Shown here in pieces: positions 3,043 to 9,256 of a stretch of DNA of 20,210 nucleotides (position 1 is its first letter; the number at the start of each line of letters is the position of its first letter). The translations under genes were made by a program, and so were the position numbers. The DNA is from a virus. Under the pieces are notes generated by a model, which was given only the letters and a program-made list of their open reading frames with translations, searched no databases and was not told the DNA's origin. The DNA is taken from positions 1 to 20,210 of the IMG/VR virus record IMGVR_UViG_3300035182_000236. One strand, written 5' to 3'.

Positions 3043-3719
3043 TCACATCTCCCACGGCCATCTGCCGGTACGCTGTTTCAGTTGTACTGCCTTTGCCATT
3101 TGGTGAGGTGCATCGTTCGGCAGCTTGCTCTTGTCTAGGTCCTTGTCGAACAGGTTTCTGCGGGCTTGTGCGTACGCGCGCATCCACATCACGTCGCCAG
3201 CGAGAAGGAGCGGCTGCTGCATGGCATCGAGGAGCGATGAGGCCAGCCCCTCCTCGCACATGCGGCTGAGTCGCCACTGTGGTGGCTCCTCTGCGCCCTC
3301 GTCTCCGTTCAGGAAGGAGTCGAGGGCGAGGAGGAGTTTCCCAAGTCTTCCCGACTGCGGAGTCCTACAATCTGGAGCGCCGCCCATCGCGCAACGCTAG
3401 GCTCAAGGAGCTTGATGTTCTCGGGCGACACCTCGGCGTCAATGCTCCACGCAACGATTCCTGCACGCAGAACAGAGAAGATGTCAAGCTGCGCCAGAGG
3501 ATCGGCAGACTGGCGCTCGATGACGGCCTTGATGTCGTCCTCGGATGCGCCGCCCAGCACATTCTCGATGTCCAGTGCTTTCGCTGCCTTGACGGCATCA
3601 ACGGCGGCGACCATCTCAGCGCCCTCAAGCTCCGCCCACGAGAGCGGCCGGATGTCCATCCACTCATCGGAGTCAGGAACGTTGACCCTCGTGGTGTACT
3701 GCGTGACTAACAGGCCCAC
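3043..3719 (-). CDS. Tail assembly chaperone, long (gpGT-like) -1 frameshift product
   Basis: A 225-aa product: 128 residues shared with the short chaperone, then a -1 shift at 3336-3342 and 97 residues in the overlapping frame, ending at 3043. The zero-frame codons are TTG GGA AAC; after slippage they re-pair as GGG AAA and continue CTC CTC CTC, giving GKLLLALDSFLNGDEG. The extension is helical and basic toward its end (AQARRNLFDKDLDKSKLPND, then RTGRWPWEM). In lambda-like phages the T extension recruits the tail tube subunit to the chaperone-coated tape measure. The second frame also has an ATG at 3387, but no ribosome site is needed to explain its expression. It ends one base before the tape measure start. 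Confidence 0.87.
3286..3333 (-). promoter_or_regulatory. Stem-loop downstream of the slippery site (frameshift stimulator)
   Basis: On the minus strand GCCCTCG (3327-3321) pairs perfectly with CGAGGGC (3301-3295). CTCC (3319-3316) pairs inside it with GGAG (3306-3303). An outer CTCCTC (3333-3328) can pair with GAGGAG (3291-3286) across a three-base bulge. The seven-bp stem begins eight bases after the heptamer, the usual spacing for -1 stimulators. The zero-frame stop codon lies in the apical loop. Confidence 0.7.
3309..3719 (-). CDS. Tail assembly chaperone, short (gpG-like) form
   Basis: A 136-aa protein in the position of lambda gpG, between the tail tube and tape measure genes. It starts with GTG at 3719 behind a GGAGG site seven bases upstream, two bases after the tail tube stop. 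The sequence is acidic and helical (for example ENVLGGASEDDIKAVIERQ and SWAELEGAEMVAAVDAVKAA), as expected for chaperones that coat the tape measure before tube polymerisation. About 128 codons in, it reaches the slippery heptamer GGGAAAC. Ribosomes that do not slip add eight residues (SSSPSTPS) and stop. The short form should be the main product. Chaperones are highly divergent, so the call rests on position, size and the frameshift. Confidence 0.88.
   Translation of the reverse strand: MGLLVTQYTTRVNVPDSDEWMDIRPLSWAELEGAEMVAAVDAVKAAKALDIENVLGGASEDDIKAVIERQSADPLAQLDIFSVLRAGIVAWSIDAEVSPENIKLLEPSVARWAALQIVGLRSREDLGNSSSPSTPS
3336..3342 (-). promoter_or_regulatory. -1 programmed frameshift slippery heptamer GGGAAAC
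   Basis: The minus strand reads G GGA AAC in exactly the X XXY YYZ phase of the zero frame, the form required for tandem -1 slippage. It lies inside the region where the two chaperone frames overlap, and the new frame is open to the end of the gT-like extension. Confidence 0.9.
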
Positions 3720-3721
3720 GA

Positions 3722-4153
3722 TTAGGCCTCCGTGACTGCGCCGGTTGCGGTCAGCGTGACCGTGAACATGGTCGGCTGGCCCTTGCTCGGGTTGCGGTCA
3801 TAACCGGTGATGATCGTCTCAACCTGAGTGGACTTGGTACCGCCCCAGGTGACCTTGAGGGTGCGGGTGCCTCCGCTAGTAGAGACACAGCCGAGGTCCT
3901 TGAAAATCGCATCCGGACCGGTTGCGGCGGTGTCATCGTAGAAGCCCTCGATGGTGATCTCGTCCATCTGGAGCAGGCCGCCAAAGAGGTTCTTCTGCCA
4001 GCCGCCAGCGCTTGAGCCAAGAGGCGTCACGTCCACAGTCGGGGCGTTGATTTTCAGGCCGTTGATTGACGTGATGTACTGCGACATATCGACGAGCGTG
4101 CCGCTGGAGTTGTCGAACTCCACCTTGATGTTCGACCAGTTATACTGAGCCAC
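3722..4153 (-). CDS. Major tail tube protein
   Basis: A 143-aa protein that should polymerise into the tail tube around the tape measure. It starts with GTG at 4153 behind a strong GGAGG site. The beta-rich sequence (NWSNIKVEFDNSSGTLVDMS, then TIEGFYDD, then TLKVTWGGTKSTQVETIITG) and small size fit the tail tube fold. It lies directly upstream of the chaperones, the normal place for the tube subunit. It shares the pattern TPLG(S/A)xA...FGG...I....YDD with the N-terminal part of the preceding, larger gene, so the two look like paralogues. It is preceded by a structured leader (4154-4215) also found before the capsid gene, consistent with high expression. Confidence 0.85.
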   Translation of the reverse strand: MAQYNWSNIKVEFDNSSGTLVDMSQYITSINGLKINAPTVDVTPLGSSAGGWQKNLFGGLLQMDEITIEGFYDDTAATGPDAIFKDLGCVSTSGGTRTLKVTWGGTKSTQVETIITGYDRNPSKGQPTMFTVTLTATGAVTEA

Positions 4154-4215
4154 TTCTTACCTCCGGTAGGTGTGGCCGCGTCTCTCGCCGGGGAGCGGCC
4201 GTTGTTCTTGTGTCA
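4154..4215 (-). promoter_or_regulatory. Structured RNA leader of the tail tube gene (related to the capsid-gene leader)
   Basis: Starting at the stop codon of the preceding gene, the transcript forms a hairpin: GGCCGC (4200-4195), a 15-base loop TCCCCGGCGAGAGAC (4194-4180) and GCGGCC (4179-4174). The text ACCGGAGGTA, containing the ribosome site, follows. No U-run comes after the stem, so it does not look like a standard terminator. A related element precedes the major capsid gene at 8333-8406, matching at 30 of 42 ungapped positions. It could be an RNA processing or stabilising site, or an attenuator; its function is inferred only. Confidence 0.7.
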
Positions 4216-5190
4216 GTGCCTCGCAAACCCCGCGAAGAACGAGAGGGACGGGCTGCTTCCGCTGCCGGTCAACACATAGGCGACTCGGCAGTATTGGCTG
4301 ATGGGCGTTCCGGCTGGGATGGCGATGGCTGCCGCAGCGGGCGCAGTGGTGATCGTCGCGGATGCACCTGAAACGTCGGTGTAGGTGCCGCCGAGTGTGG
4401 TAGCCGACTGGAGCTTCACAATCCAGTTGGTGTAGCCGCCCAGCGTAATCGCCGGGACGTGGACGTGGAGGCTGCCTCCGTTGGCGCGCTGCACGGTGCC
4501 GCCCGTGCCGCCGACGGTCACGTTCACCGGAATGGTGAAGTGCGTCGCATCCGTGACGGTCACAACGTACGTGCCGTTGATTGACGGCGTAGATCCGGTG
4601 TGGCTGGCGATGATGACGGTGTCGCCGCTGGCGAGCCCGTGGGCGGATGACGTGGTGATGACTGTTGGGTTAGCGACGCTAGACGAAGAGATGGCAACCG
4701 GTGCCCCGCCGCAGTCGGCTCCGGCCTGGTTGCTTGCGCTCGTTACGACGGTACCAGCGGGCGCTAGGATGACACCTTCCTCGCGGCCATATGACCCTGC
4801 TGACTCATAGCTGATGTCCTGGACAACGACCTCGCCCTTGTTGACGCCGCGCCTCTCTGCGGATACCAGCATCGACGGGTACCCGAAGAATGGCTGGCCC
4901 AGAGCGTTCCCTGCCAACGCCCACGCAACCGGACAACTGGATGCCAGATTGCCGAAGCTCGCGTCGCGGATAAATGCGTTGGTAGCCTGCGCGGAATCGT
5001 CGTAGACTACAGTCTGCTCAATGGTGGCCGATCTGACACCGCCGAACTGCTTTCGCTCTGCCGTAGCGCCTAAGGGCGTGGTGTCCATCACCGTTGCCGT
5101 AGCCTTAGCGTCGATGGTCAGCACGTAGGGGAGCAGGCTGAGGCCATCGGCCAGAAAAAAGGCAACATCGGAACTCTTGTACACTGTCAT
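4213..5190 (-). CDS. Tail-tube-like protein with FCCH-like repeat and C-terminal beta domain
   Basis: A 325-aa virion protein, probably a second tail tube or tail decoration subunit. The start at 5190 is chosen because AAGGAG lies eight bases upstream and ATGA overlaps the preceding stop; an in-frame ATG 31 codons earlier lies inside that gene and lacks a site. The N-terminal part resembles the short tail tube protein (TTPLGATAERKQFGGV, then VVYDDSAQATNAFIRD). The middle holds the phrase NPTVITTSSAHGLASGDTVI and NGTYVVTVTDATHFTIPV, typical of the FCCH-like repeat found in many phage tail proteins. The C-terminal domain (GGSLHVHVPAITLGGYTNW to CRVAYVLTGSGSSPSLSFFA) resembles beta-sandwich tail domains ending in an aromatic-rich strand. 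The split into domains is by eye. Confidence 0.75.
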   Translation of the reverse strand: MTVYKSSDVAFFLADGLSLLPYVLTIDAKATATVMDTTPLGATAERKQFGGVRSATIEQTVVYDDSAQATNAFIRDASFGNLASSCPVAWALAGNALGQPFFGYPSMLVSAERRGVNKGEVVVQDISYESAGSYGREEGVILAPAGTVVTSASNQAGADCGGAPVAISSSSVANPTVITTSSAHGLASGDTVIIASHTGSTPSINGTYVVTVTDATHFTIPVNVTVGGTGGTVQRANGGSLHVHVPAITLGGYTNWIVKLQSATTLGGTYTDVSGASATITTAPAAAAIAIPAGTPISQYCRVAYVLTGSGSSPSLSFFAGFARH

Positions 5191-5420
5191 GCTTGCTCTC
5201 CTTGTGCGCCGCAATCGGGGCAGAACCAGAGTATCTTGGTGCTGCCTGCGGTCTGTCTCGTTACTTTGCGGGGATGTGAACACTCCGCTGCCGCAGGCTC
5301 ACGCAGTTCAGACGATTCGTTGCCCTCATAGCGCTTTAGGGTTGCGTCAAGAGACATAGATAGGCTGAAGAGCGTGTCGCGGATGACACGCAACTGCCCG
5401 ACGATCTCAGCGTCCTGCAT
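5187..5420 (-). CDS. Small zinc-ribbon-like protein in the tail module
   Basis: A 77-aa protein of unknown role. Residues about 1-32 are helical (MQDAEIVGQLRVIRDTLFSL). The C-terminal part carries C47-x-H49 and C67-x-x-C70 (ECSH, then FCPDCGAQ), a plausible zinc ribbon. It overlaps the tail terminator gene by 14 bases and the next gene by ATGA, so it belongs to the structural operon. The same ECxH...CxxCGA layout appears in the 80-aa protein at 17902-18144. Its place between tail terminator and tail tube-like gene is unusual for a zinc protein. It could be a small assembly factor, or a regulator carried by the operon; nothing in the sequence decides. Confidence 0.72.
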   Translation of the reverse strand: MQDAEIVGQLRVIRDTLFSLSMSLDATLKRYEGNESSELREPAAAECSHPRKVTRQTAGSTKILWFCPDCGAQGEQA

Positions 5421-5781
5421 GGGTAAACCTCACATCGAAGCGCCGACGGCACATGCGTCCGCGCGGCTCCTCGGAGTCCGCTACGTCAATGATGTTTACT
5501 TCGGCCGTGCCCCACATCGTCAGGATTGCGTCCTCTAGGGCGTCGGAGCTACCGATAACGCTAGTCATGTCTTCGTCCCAGAGGTCGATGTAAAAGCGCG
5601 GCGTTGATGCTTTGATACTTCCGCCAAGTGCGTGCAGCCGTGCCCCGCCGACGCGATTGATGACGACGCACGGCAGCGTCGGCTCCTCTGGCATCCGGTG
5701 ATGATAGACACGTGGGCCGACAAGCGACGCGAGGGCGCTGTGGCTCTTCAGGGCTGTCACGAGTGTCGATTCAAAGCTCAT
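5407..5781 (-). CDS. Tail terminator / tail completion protein (DUF3168-like)
   Basis: A 124-aa protein that probably caps the tail at the head-proximal end so it can join the head. The pattern matches the DUF3168 type: an N-terminal helix (FESTLVTALKSHSALASLVG), the RVYHHRMPEEPTLPCVVINR strand region, a central FYIDLWDED segment and a helix with DALEDAIL, ending in a beta strand (RRRFDVRFTHAG). The ATG at 5781 overlaps the previous stop as ATGA. Its location, after the gp10-like gene and before the tail tube genes, is the standard place for the terminator. Family call by motif memory and context, not by a search. Confidence 0.8.
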   Translation of the reverse strand: MSFESTLVTALKSHSALASLVGPRVYHHRMPEEPTLPCVVINRVGGARLHALGGSIKASTPRFYIDLWDEDMTSVIGSSDALEDAILTMWGTAEVNIIDVADSEEPRGRMCRRRFDVRFTHAGR

Positions 5782-6248
5782 GCGCCGAACACCGCCGCAA
5801 ATCGCGCCGCGAGGTTGACAGCGAAGTCCATGACTACCTCGGCACGCGTCTCCTCATAGGCGGGGAGCATGAATGGGTGGGGCGCGTTAGTCACGAGGCT
5901 GACGTTGCTGACCTCATCACCTTCCATGCCGATGAAGTGCATATTGCCGCGACTGACGCCGCCGTACTCAAGCTTTCTGGCGTAAGGAGCCTCTGCGGCA
6001 ATCTTGACCGATGCGTCAGCGCCGGGGAGCGTGACAATATGGCTCGCCAAGTACCCCTTGCCGTACTCATCCCACGGCGGAGACGGGTAGGCGTAGTCGT
6101 GCGGGGCAATCTGCCGGGCGACGGCCTCTACCATCTTCCCGCTTGGAAGAAGCTCCTCGCGGAGCGATGCTGGATTCTCTAGAATCGCCAGACAGGCGGC
6201 AAGCTTGCGGTTCACTTCCGTAACGCCCTTGACGTAGACCTCATACAT
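5778..6248 (-). CDS. HK97-gp10-like head-tail joining protein
   Basis: A 156-aa protein of the neck module. It has the typical layout of HK97 gp10-like proteins: an N-terminal amphipathic helix (VKGVTEVNRKLAACLAILEN), a helix leading to a Pro-rich segment (HDYAYPSPPWDEYGKGYLAS), then APYARKLEYGG, where the A-x-Y-A-x-x-x-E-Y-G pattern is characteristic, a PHPFMLPAYEETR segment and a terminal helix. It overlaps the preceding gene by eight bases and the tail terminator by ATGA. The ribosome site is weak, so translation probably depends on coupling. The exact role of gp10-like proteins is not settled; they are generally needed to join heads and tails. Confidence 0.8.
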   Translation of the reverse strand: MYEVYVKGVTEVNRKLAACLAILENPASLREELLPSGKMVEAVARQIAPHDYAYPSPPWDEYGKGYLASHIVTLPGADASVKIAAEAPYARKLEYGGVSRGNMHFIGMEGDEVSNVSLVTNAPHPFMLPAYEETRAEVVMDFAVNLAARFAAVFGA

Positions 6249-6636
6249 TGCCGGGGATGACCTTCTCGATTAGCAACTGCGTGAACGTGCCGGTTGGGTC
6301 CTGGATAATGCTGGCAACGCTCCACGGGAAGCCGTCCCACATCATCCGGTCGCCGTGCTGAATCTCGTTGTACTGGCCGTTCAGGACGACGCGGCGCTGC
6401 GTGCGGATTTGCGTCACCTGGTCAAGTCGTGTCTCCTGCGGACGGATTCTGAGGCCCACGTCAACGGGTCCGACGTTAGCGCGCAGGTTGTCGTGTCCGG
6501 GCAGGACTGCCCATGACTCCTGGATCTCGCCAATGTCGCTCGTAGTGACAGTCGAACGCATGATTGTCACCTCATCACCAAATAGGTGGTCGAGCGCCAT
6601 GTTCAGCCGGTTACCACCAATGGGCACCGAGTTCAC
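6241..6636 (-). CDS. Head closure / head-tail adaptor protein
   Basis: A 131-aa protein in the position of SPP1 gp16-like or HK97 stopper proteins, which close the portal channel and bind the tail. It is beta-rich with DEVTIMRSTVTTSDIGEIQE, then a middle segment LRANVGPVDVGLRIRPQETR, and GDRMMWDGFPWSVASIIQD, a pattern usual in this group. It starts with GTG at 6636, overlapping the previous stop as GTGA, with GGGAGG seven bases upstream. An internal ATG at 6600 (MALDHLFGDEV) is a possible alternative but has only a distant GGTGG. The call is based on gene order, size and general pattern. Confidence 0.72.
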   Translation of the reverse strand: MNSVPIGGNRLNMALDHLFGDEVTIMRSTVTTSDIGEIQESWAVLPGHDNLRANVGPVDVGLRIRPQETRLDQVTQIRTQRRVVLNGQYNEIQHGDRMMWDGFPWSVASIIQDPTGTFTQLLIEKVIPGNV

Positions 6637-7022
6637 AACAGGCCCTCCCGCATGAGCGTCTTCCAGTACGTCTCATCGGCCTGCAAGGCATCGTCGGCGA
6701 ACGAGGCGCTTCCGAACGCGGGTGCGTCAGTGCTCATGGAATCGGCATCCTGCCGCAGTTGCGCGGCACGGGCGCGTAGCTCCTTGGCAACGGCTGGTCC
6801 GTCGGTAGCTAGGCCGAGAATCGTGACCGCCTGTTGCGTGAGGGCTGCGTCCGACGCGATGGTGTCGAGAGCCATCGCAGCGGCGAGCATCACTGACCCG
6901 CCCACCATGGAAAGAAAGGCCGCAATCTCCTCATCCTGAAAGATTTGGCGATTCTCGTCTGTGTCGGAGATGAGCAGCCGCACCCGGCCTGCGTCGGTGC
7001 TAGTGTCGTACGTGAACGTCAT
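6633..7022 (-). CDS. Head-tail connector (adaptor) protein
   Basis: A protein of 129 aa from the ATG at 7022, or 130 aa from the adjacent ATG at 7025; the AGGGGG stretch is four bases from the former and one from the latter. It starts MTFTYDTSTDAGRVRLLISD and continues with DEEIAAFLSMVGGSVMLAAA, a pattern common in short helical proteins found directly after major capsid genes. These proteins form the ring under the portal that receives the closure protein. The middle LATDGPAVAKELRARAAQLR is helical. The gene follows a 113-base non-coding gap with a very stable hairpin (7040-7086), the largest break in the head-tail part of the operon. It overlaps the next gene as GTGA. Confidence 0.78.
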   Translation of the reverse strand: MTFTYDTSTDAGRVRLLISDTDENRQIFQDEEIAAFLSMVGGSVMLAAAMALDTIASDAALTQQAVTILGLATDGPAVAKELRARAAQLRQDADSMSTDAPAFGSASFADDALQADETYWKTLMREGLL

Positions 7023-7039
7023 CATGCCCCCTAGCGGAC

Positions 7040-7086
7040 GGGGCCGCGCGGTGCAGCGATTCGAAGTCGCTCCTCCGCGCGGCCCC
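7040..7086 (-). terminator. Very stable 47-nt hairpin after the major capsid gene
   Basis: GGGGCCGCGCGG (7040-7051) and CCGCGCGGCCCC (7075-7086) are perfect 12-bp inverted repeats. An inner AGCGA/TCGCT stem with a seven-base loop sits inside. On the minus strand no U-run follows, and the connector gene begins about 15-18 bases after it. It may act as a partial terminator, an RNA 3'-end stabiliser for capsid mRNA, or a processing site. The structure is seen directly; the function is inferred. Confidence 0.7.
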
Positions 7087-7138
7087 TGACAACGGGACTA
7101 TCGGCCATGCCGACGCCCCGGCTAGCTCACGGCTCTAA

Positions 7139-8332
7139 TCAGGAGCCGGAGCCGTTGCTTGCAACGGCGAGCTTCGGGTCCACGATGGCGACGCCGAAGA
7201 TGTCGCGGACCTTGTACCAGACGGCCTCCTGATCGAAGTCCTCAGGGACCGTGCCGCCGCCAAGCCTCTGACTGTTGGGAGTCTTCACAAACAGCTCAGG
7301 GCCGATGTGCCCGGAGAGCGGGCTGAACTCCGCAAACGGGCGATTGCCCAGCGCGTTGGCGATGACGAACCACGAAGAGTTGCCGTTAGCGGTTGAGGCG
7401 ACGTAAGGGATGTACGGGTTTACCTGCACCGACAGACGACCGGCCATCCAGTTGGTCGTGACAAGCTGGTTCTGAGCGGTGTACGCTCCGCCGCCCTGCG
7501 CCACCTGAATCTGATAGGCGTTCATCAGAATGTTGCGTGCCTTGATCTCCAGCGCAGGAGGCACGACCAGCGTGGCGGCCTCGATGACAATCGGATGACC
7601 ATAAGCATCGACCTGCTTGCCCATGACGAGCATAGCGTCACCCAGCGCGTCGATGGTCAGAGGCGGGTTGTTGCTCGCCGCACCGTTGGTCGTGTTGATC
7701 TGGTTCTTGGATGACGCCTTGAAGACATTAGCGTTGGGGCCGTTTGCGTCCACGAACAACTGGGCGACCTTGAGGGCCTCGGTGCGCCGAGCGGCGATGG
7801 CGAGACTCTGCGGCATGTCGGCAAGAGCGCCGAGATCGTCGTTGATAAGAGTTTCGAAGTTCACGCCCCACTTGGTGCCGAACTTACCAACCTGGAGCGT
7901 GATCGGCGTATCCTCAGACGGATGCCGCTCGGCATACTCCTCGCGCTCACCAACGGCCGGGAGCACATCGGTAAGGCCAATCATCCCAAGGCGCTTGGCC
8001 TGGCGGAAGTCGCGGAGCGGACGACCGAACTTGATGTAGCTCGTCCAGTCAGGAATCCACGCCTGGTAGTAGCTCATCATGCTACGGTCGAGGACATCCC
8101 CAAAGAGATAGGGGAAGTCGGAGAGCATACTTGCCTCGCGGAACTCGTACAGGCCCTTGTTCTCGCCCGCGACGGCGCGCTCGAAGATGTCCACCGTGGC
8201 GTCGATGGCCTCGATGGAGTGATTGCTGCGGCGGGCAAAGCCCTCCTGCTTCTCGCCTCCGAGAAGCTCGTGGACGCGATCGGCAGAAGCCTGTGCCTCT
8301 TCCGTGAGCGTCTTGAACTCGGTATGGTCCAT
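7139..8332 (-). CDS. Major capsid protein (HK97 fold)
   Basis: A 397-aa protein, the expected shell subunit. It lies after the protease-scaffold and decoration genes, the standard position. The N-terminal 50 residues are charged and helical (FKTLTEEAQASADRVHELLG), and the central part has segments typical of capsid subunits of this kind: DWTSYIKFGRPLRDFRQAKR, then FGTKWGVNFETLINDDLGAL and ARRTEALKVAQLFVD. The C-terminal part holds PFAEFSPLSGHIGPELFVKT and FDQEAVWYKVRDIFGVAIVD, a phrase common at the end of these proteins. The ATG follows a GGAGGTAGGG ribosome region. The gene has hairpins on both sides: a structured leader at 8333-8406 and a long stem at 7040-7086, consistent with separate control of its mRNA. 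Confidence 0.88.
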   Translation of the reverse strand: MDHTEFKTLTEEAQASADRVHELLGGEKQEGFARRSNHSIEAIDATVDIFERAVAGENKGLYEFREASMLSDFPYLFGDVLDRSMMSYYQAWIPDWTSYIKFGRPLRDFRQAKRLGMIGLTDVLPAVGEREEYAERHPSEDTPITLQVGKFGTKWGVNFETLINDDLGALADMPQSLAIAARRTEALKVAQLFVDANGPNANVFKASSKNQINTTNGAASNNPPLTIDALGDAMLVMGKQVDAYGHPIVIEAATLVVPPALEIKARNILMNAYQIQVAQGGGAYTAQNQLVTTNWMAGRLSVQVNPYIPYVASTANGNSSWFVIANALGNRPFAEFSPLSGHIGPELFVKTPNSQRLGGGTVPEDFDQEAVWYKVRDIFGVAIVDPKLAVASNGSGS

Positions 8333-8406
8333 CTGTGCCCTACCTCCGGTGGGGACTCAGAAGCGGCGGCGTCTCTTTCCGATGAGCCGCTGCTTCGCTT
8401 TTGTCA
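8333..8406 (-). promoter_or_regulatory. Structured RNA leader of the major capsid gene (related to the tail-tube leader)
   Basis: Beginning at the stop codon of the decoration gene, AAGCAGCGGC (8395-8386) pairs with GCCGCCGCTT (8370-8361) with one A-C mismatch. The 15-base loop is TCATCGGAAAGAGAC. The element matches the leader at 4174-4215 at 30 of 42 ungapped positions. A C-G pair in the tail element is G-C here, which is compensatory. The text ACCGGAGGTA follows in both. No U-run comes after the stem. Confidence 0.72.
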
Positions 8407-8763
8407 GGTCGAGAGACGAACGGGGATCGTCGCGGTCGAGCCGCTAGTGATTGCCTGGAGGGCGATGCCGAACTTCACGCCCGTATTCTTCTTAGAGAGC
8501 TTGGGCGTGTCGCCCACGACCCAGTAGATAATGTCGCCCACGGACACGGCGCTGTTGCCGCCGCCATCGACGGCTTTCACCGACAGGTTGAACACCGCGC
8601 CGTTCTTGACGCACACCGTGGCATTCTGCGTGCCGCTGGACCCCGTGGCAGTGACGGTCACGCCCGGAAGCTGGCCCACGCAGACGGGGGAACCAGCGGC
8701 GACACTCGCGCCGACGGTCAGAGGGAGAAAGTCTCCCTGGTTGTACACTTCATTTGCAGCCAT
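8404..8763 (-). CDS. Capsid decoration protein (DUF2190-like)
   Basis: A 119-aa beta-rich protein expected to bind the outside of the capsid shell. It begins MAANEVYNQGDFLPLTVGAS, with the features of the DUF2190 type: a polar start, then VAAGSPVCVGQLPGVTVTAT, then a central VKNGAVFNLSVKAVDGGG segment and GDIIYWVVGDTPKLSKKNTG before a final FGIALQAITSGSTATIPVRL. That last phrase is very typical. It sits between the protease-scaffold gene and the capsid gene, the usual location. The ATG at 8763 is preceded by CGGAGGTAGG. The gene is followed directly by the structured leader of the capsid gene. Confidence 0.85.
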   Translation of the reverse strand: MAANEVYNQGDFLPLTVGASVAAGSPVCVGQLPGVTVTATGSSGTQNATVCVKNGAVFNLSVKAVDGGGNSAVSVGDIIYWVVGDTPKLSKKNTGVKFGIALQAITSGSTATIPVRLST

Positions 8764-8782
8764 TCCGGCCTACCTCCGTTGG

Positions 8783-9256
8783 TCAGCGGCCCTTGACCGC
8801 CAGCTTTGCCTGATCCTCGGACATGCCGAAGACACGCATAAAGCGCGCGACGGCGGCCTCCTGAATCTTGGTGTCGTCCTTGGCATCGTGCGTGTACTTG
8901 CCCTGCTCCTTGACCTCGCCAGTCCCGAGAATCTTGGCTAGGTACTCGGCCTCAGCCTTGGCGGCTTCCTCAACCGACGCCTTCAGCGCGTCAAGGTCAA
9001 CCTGGCCATCTACGATGGGCGGGTTCTTCGCCACCGACTCCGAGATGCGCTGCTTACTAGGCGCGGGAAGGTCGATGTCGGCTAGGGCTCTACCGGCCTC
9101 GCGCTGCGCCTCCAGGACGGCGAGAGCCATCTCGGCGCGGTCAGCGCGCTCAGTAGCCTGATTGGCGCGGTCGTTGGCTTCAGACACCATCGTCTCTGCC
9201 TCCGACAGCTTGCCCTCAAGCTCGGTGATGCGAGCCTGCGCTTCTGTCAGTTCCAT
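8783..9256 (-). CDS. Nested scaffold protein from an internal start
   Basis: An in-frame ATG at codon 208 of the protease-scaffold gene gives a 157-aa product made only of the coiled-coil scaffold part, starting MELTEAQARITELEGKLSEA. AAGGAG lies about nine bases upstream (9271-9266), as good a site as those of independent genes in this window. The start falls right at the boundary between the linker (acidic and polar, EEADESKENDQ) and the coiled coil. In lambda, the scaffold Nu3 is made in the same way from within protease gene C. This is inference from sequence: the ribosome site and position are visible, expression is not. Confidence 0.62.
   Translation of the reverse strand: MELTEAQARITELEGKLSEAETMVSEANDRANQATERADRAEMALAVLEAQREAGRALADIDLPAPSKQRISESVAKNPPIVDGQVDLDALKASVEEAAKAEAEYLAKILGTGEVKEQGKYTHDAKDDTKIQEAAVARFMRVFGMSEDQAKLAVKGR

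Follow-up and report, generated by a model that had tools for sequence, protein, structure and literature searches.

Two related leader hairpins precede the major capsid and tail-tube genes in a narrow phage lineage and probably form a control or processing element

INTRODUCTION

In tailed phages whose late messages are polycistronic, capsid and tail-tube subunits are produced by the hundreds, portals and terminases only in small numbers, and how this is controlled is mostly unmapped outside model phages. Here, we describe a duplicated, conserved leader hairpin standing before exactly the capsid and tail-tube genes of a 20,210-base virus record (the whole stretch analyzed, referred to below as the window), a small, testable handle on this control from one uncultured lineage only.

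The closest described systems are two kinds of phage leader. In T4 and RB69, gene 43, which encodes DNA polymerase, has an autoregulatory RNA operator; the T4 polymerase acts at a hairpin some 40 bases ahead of the start codon of its gene (PMC3014915). Our leaders appear to share with this operator a hairpin placed tens of bases before the start codon, a conserved loop on a differing stem, and a downstream ribosome site (PMC3014915). The gene 43 operator, however, belongs to a DNA polymerase gene, has the loop UAAC, and involves an unrelated protein, whereas here two copies precede virion genes and have no known binding protein. Cluster K mycobacteriophages carry start-associated and extended start-associated sequences, which are repeated leader cassettes with an inverted repeat and unknown function (PMC3203893). 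These resemble our leaders in being repeated, in having an inverted repeat shortly before the ribosome site, and in occupying unusually long gaps, but they occur in 11 to 19 copies before nonstructural genes (PMC3203893), compared with two copies before virion genes here. Their 13-base core, GGGATAGGAGCCC, had no match near either leader when 2 mismatches were allowed; the single 2-mismatch match elsewhere in the window is at chance level.

Beside a related (Mu gpT-like) capsid gene lies a structured RNA, the Mu-gpT downstream element. This element and the other Rfam phage motifs differ from the present case in that no Rfam family (release 15) matches anywhere in the window at the gathering cutoff; the best subthreshold match on the capsid leader (E = 0.75) is on the wrong strand.

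RESULTS

Two leaders interrupt a compact set of virion genes

The virion genes of the window lie on the minus strand in the order portal, protease, decoration protein, capsid protein, small neck and tail genes, two tail-tube-like proteins, and tape measure, and adjacent genes mostly overlap or abut. Of the gaps before capsid or tail-tube genes in the window, only the two leaders listed in Table 1 bear a hairpin. The tandem tail-tube-like proteins (positions 3722 to 5190, minus strand) are weakly similar to each other, and the first of them has a C-terminal extension with an Ig-like look.

Table 1. Genes, leaders, and predicted RNA features at the two sites in the window
Feature	Position	Strand	Details
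Major capsid protein gene	7139..8332	-	Downstream of first hairpin copy; Pfam Phage_capsid_4, 1.4e-35; PHROG head families
Decoration (cement) protein gene	8404..8763	-	Upstream of first copy; Pfam Phage_cement_2, 3e-8
Major tail (tube) protein gene	3722..4153	-	Downstream of second copy; PHROG 10528 major tail protein, 3.4e-13
Second tail-tube-like gene	4213..5190	-	Upstream of second copy; start codon inferred; PHROG 584 major tail protein, 2e-4; weakly similar to tail-tube protein
Capsid leader, decoration-gene stop codon to base before capsid ATG	8333..8406	-	Sequence; 68/71 noncoding bases same in lineage B
Tail-tube leader, upstream tail-gene stop codon to base before GTG start	4154..4215	-	Sequence; 58/59 noncoding bases same in lineage B
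Shine-Dalgarno GGAGGU, capsid gene	8342..8347	-	Sequence
Shine-Dalgarno GGAGGU, tail-tube gene	4159..4164	-	Sequence
Hairpin H1, capsid copy	8360..8396	-	Predicted stem GAAGC-A-GCGGC / GCCGC-C-GCUUC, UC/GA inner pairs, loop AUCGGAAA(GA)
Hairpin H1, tail copy	4174..4200	-	Predicted stem GGCCGC / GCGGCC, loop UCCCCGGCGAGAGAC; 30/42 match to capsid copy
Possible second hairpin H2 over ribosome site (GUCCC.ACC/GGU.GGG.AC)	8335..8356	-	Predicted

Counted from each TGA stop along the minus strand (8406-8333 and 4215-4151), the first 42 bases of the leaders match without gaps at 30 positions. This match, reported in an earlier reading of the window made from sequence only, was confirmed by reading both leaders and by comparing all same-strand pairs of 42-mers in the window, among which 30/42 is the top score and is reached on this diagonal only. 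Because three unrelated diagonals score 29/42, the raw similarity is only marginal genome-wide; a match of this kind at two stop-anchored boundaries before virion genes is nevertheless far beyond chance.

Other parts of the sequence-only reading needed adjustment. The loops TCATCGGAAAGAGAC and TCCCCGGCGAGAGAC are present as it claimed, and ACCGGAGGTA with the ribosome site does follow both hairpins, but the ribosome-site string CGGAGGTA is not hairpin specific, since it is also found ahead of the decoration gene, where there is no hairpin. The surrounding proteins had been described as nonhomologous; the two on either side of the tail copy are unrelated to the capsid protein but show weak similarity to one another (BLASTP E = 2e-4 in a single comparison).

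Both leaders are predicted to form a GC-rich stem

Each leader is predicted to fold into a GC stem, H1, with 5 pairs, an A.C mismatch, and 5 further pairs in the capsid copy and 6 pairs in the tail copy. The 15-base loop proposed for both copies is narrowed by UC/GA pairs inside it, which leave a loop of 8 to 10 bases and a 3′ bulge. Capsid H1 folds more stably than shuffled sequences (z = -2.4, or -3.1 when the gap is folded alone), while the whole tail leader folds no better than shuffles (z = -0.6). A pairing of the loop with the ribosome site (CCGG or CUC with GAG), noted by eye, was not conserved and was dropped.

The G-C/C-G swap that had been read as a compensatory stem change is present but insignificant alone: among the four near copies it is the one pair with a double change, and 412 of 500 shuffles reach as much. 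Two sequences cannot show significant covariation, and relatives were therefore sought.

The leaders are conserved between two close lineages

The same capsid gene (97 to 100% identical) is present in four viral contigs, which fall into two lineages, A (which includes the window) and B, whose DNA is about 93% identical. Both hairpins are present in all four. The four distinct hairpin copies were combined into a covariance model, and a search of each whole record with it found exactly two confident places per close-relative record.

Lineages A and B show 3 differences in the 71 bases of the capsid leader and 1 in the 59 of the tail leader, so that 126 of 130 are the same; in the flanking genes, identity at third codon positions is 81 to 90%. 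Assuming a neutral rate of 15%, so few leader changes have a binomial P value of about 1e-5. All four changes fall at unpaired H1 positions (the A.C mismatch, a loop position, the bulge, and another loop position), for which the chance is about 0.015. These comparisons indicate that the leaders are under selection, in a pattern consistent with the hairpin.

They also bear on the view that the element has no present function, the tail copy being left over from a short duplication or from an exchange of modules between gene boundaries and the remainder GC-rich spacer. That there are just two copies per genome, that the tail copy is lineage specific, and that 42-base matches of 29 arise by chance in the window would all fit such an origin. 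Conservation above that of synonymous sites, the confinement of changes to unpaired positions, and a homologous capsid hairpin in a relative with 50% capsid identity (see below) speak against it, and we regard it as the least probable of the explanations considered.

A distant relative keeps the capsid copy on a rebuilt stem

Alignments that used the proteins of Methanoculleus virus led to about 130 more loci. In one of these, L136 (a 41-kb record whose capsid protein is 50% identical), a homologous hairpin lies in the gap between the decoration and capsid genes (L136:8489-8523), where the sequence reads TGACCCAGCAAACAGCGGAGCGGCGCTCCCCCGCAAAAGAGTGCGCCGCCCC... and then ...CCACGGAGGTAGTCACAGATG. 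Its stem of 7 pairs, GCGGCGC/GCGCCGC, has been rebuilt through changes on both arms, while the loop closure CUC...GAG is kept. L136 and the window also share the sequence surrounding the start codon. Model R1 scored this hairpin at 11.3 bits, with an E value of 0.28 for the 41-kb record and about 3e-4 at the prespecified 80-base place. Together with the A/B conservation, this homologous hairpin supports the view that the element is structured and selected.

The tail-tube gene of L136 lacks such a hairpin. The search for further copies in related phages that the sequence-only reading had proposed thus yielded a capsid copy in one relative beyond the near-identical set, without its tail counterpart. 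Probably, on the simplest history these sequences allow, the capsid copy is ancestral and the tail copy was duplicated in the A/B ancestor; a tail copy may instead have been lost in L136.

When 3.3 Mb of sequence from relatives was scanned separately for the motif on both strands, only the known copies, L136, and two apparently unrelated places were returned, one in L021 inside a coding frame and one at L151:189, with no reverse-strand match. A predicted hairpin with conserved loop and variable stem upstream of a ribosome site was seen in the window copies and L136, and covariation is thin because only three distinct lineages carry the element.

Conservation of the loop on a changeable stem would also fit an operator bound by a protein, as at gene 43 of T4. 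A translational operator is the main rival explanation: a phage or host protein would bind the H1 loop and bulge in both leaders and repress or activate capsid and tail-tube translation together. Such an operator would account for the loop-closing CUC...GAG shared by both paralogues and L136, and the distance to the start codon resembles that of the gp43 operator (PMC3014915). The ribosome site of L136 also lies inside a second hairpin, the counterpart of H2, that is far above shuffles (0.5% are equally stable). The H2 region in the window, however, is no more stable than shuffles (45% for the capsid leader and 16%), so we do not claim H2 as a general part of the element; a hairpin hiding the ribosome site was rejected as a general feature, being strong in L136 only. 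With no candidate binding protein, and with a single double-change pair in the four near copies, a number that shuffles match, we consider an operator unlikely, though the least unlikely of the rivals. Its stronger form, a duplicated phage-specific operator through which one RNA-binding factor would coregulate head and tail stoichiometry posttranscriptionally, seems to us improbable.

Other capsid gaps hold unrelated hairpins and terminators

Among the other relatives, L137 (48% identical) has a short gap with no hairpin, and a leader is entirely lacking in Methanoculleus virus and its kin. The 62 distinct capsid gaps comprised 37 shorter than 40 bases and 25 longer ones, several of which hold unrelated hairpins; before the tail-tube gene, nearly all relatives have a short gap. 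The idea that the element marks the two most abundant virion genes therefore holds in one narrow lineage, given the absence of the tail copy from L136, and gives way in almost all other relatives to a short gap or an unrelated hairpin.

Hairpins preceded capsid genes in 21% of cases, compared with 10% in other gaps of relatives, a weak enrichment that depends on heuristic gene calls (P = 0.025). Canonical U-run terminators stand directly upstream of the capsid gene in L145, L170, and L218 and of the tail-tube gene in L293. The excess of hairpins and these terminators suggest that placing a transcript boundary ahead of the capsid gene is a solution that has recurred. Like the window copy, the L145, L170, and L218 terminators are GC hairpins before the capsid gene (directly after the decoration gene in L218); they differ in the T run after the stem, which is lacking in the window and in L136.

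These distant terminators, and the strength of the capsid hairpin, are compatible with a partial terminator without a U-run, for example, a Rho-assisted or pausing hairpin that reduces readthrough from one virion gene into the next. Neither copy is followed by a U-run, however, and an intrinsic-terminator scan found no terminator-like site at either leader; together with the lack of an Rfam match, this bears out the earlier claim that the hairpins are not ordinary terminators. Termination ahead of the most needed gene would be counterproductive with no promoter found behind it (a sigma-70 promoter search of positions 3600 to 8900, which include the leaders, found none), and it would leave the conserved loop unexplained. 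Such a terminator thus appears quite improbable.

Some further hairpins were observed in these gaps. In L273 (positions 2145 to 2180), a GC hairpin without a U-run follows a stop codon before a tail-tube gene that is 41% identical; it scored 11.7 bits, with a stem like that of the window, but its loop is not conserved and its folding is weak. The capsid gaps of L160, L172, L185, L224, and L228 hold long, near-perfect hairpins without a U-run (for example, CCCTTCCCCCAAATGG...CAATTTGGGGGAAGGG), some sharing a CCCCCAAAT arm, and may represent a second leader family.

Wider searches found no further copies

A scan of the viral collection for the loop and ribosome-site pattern returned the known copies and unrelated places. 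One of the latter was the D-arm of a tRNA-Arg in a viral contig with eight clustered tRNA genes (L015:73-1198). In the genome collection, the same kind of scan gave 90 chance-like places, including one before a holB-like gene of a gut bacterium (L069) whose 5-pair stem is what chance predicts among that many. A model match in L032 (E = 0.055) was rejected because it lies inside a coding frame, as was a place at L136:7562, inside the protease gene. A scan of the genome collection with the capsid protein found no relatives, and a literature search on capsid-leader hairpins found no direct precedent among the papers searched.

DISCUSSION

Retention of the capsid copy in a distant relative makes it probable that the hairpin is a genuine element for control or processing, specific to its lineage. 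Its sequence is new, its general kind is known, and it is confined to a narrow lineage. Most likely it acts on the transcript rather than on the DNA; its structure is modeled from prediction and conservation.

We tentatively favor, at somewhat less than even confidence, an intercistronic leader hairpin that would shape or protect message ends for both capsid and tail-tube genes and insulate their strong ribosome sites. H1 would mark a boundary between virion genes within a polycistronic late mRNA. Message ends might form at H1, for example, at an endonuclease site; alternatively, H1 might bar 3′-to-5′ decay of the upstream message while a 5′ stem protects the downstream one. The edge of a terminating ribosome reaches about 10 to 15 bases past the stop codon. 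H1 starts 10 to 15 bases past the stop codon and ends 20 to 27 bases ahead of the next start, and because it begins about where that ribosome ends, it could stay folded during translation of the upstream gene. Processing or protection of this kind would raise expression of the downstream genes: with the ribosome site kept clear of upstream structure, capsid and tail-tube protein could be made in excess of their neighbors. Against this reading, conservation of the loop sequence points to a specific partner, for which a generic protection of ends would have no need.

A second structured gap follows the capsid gene. These 113 bases (7026 to 7138, minus strand) are predicted to form a very strong branched hairpin (fold z = -4.1) with a 12-pair GC stem, GGGGCCGCGCGG/CCGCGCGGCCCC, and no U-run; 108 of the 113 bases are conserved in lineage B, and L136 has a small open frame there. 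By portal and capsid proteins, the nearest isolate is Methanoculleus virus L4768/Blf4 (34 to 37%); the record nonetheless encodes a bacterial-type SSB and has strong GGAGGT ribosome sites.
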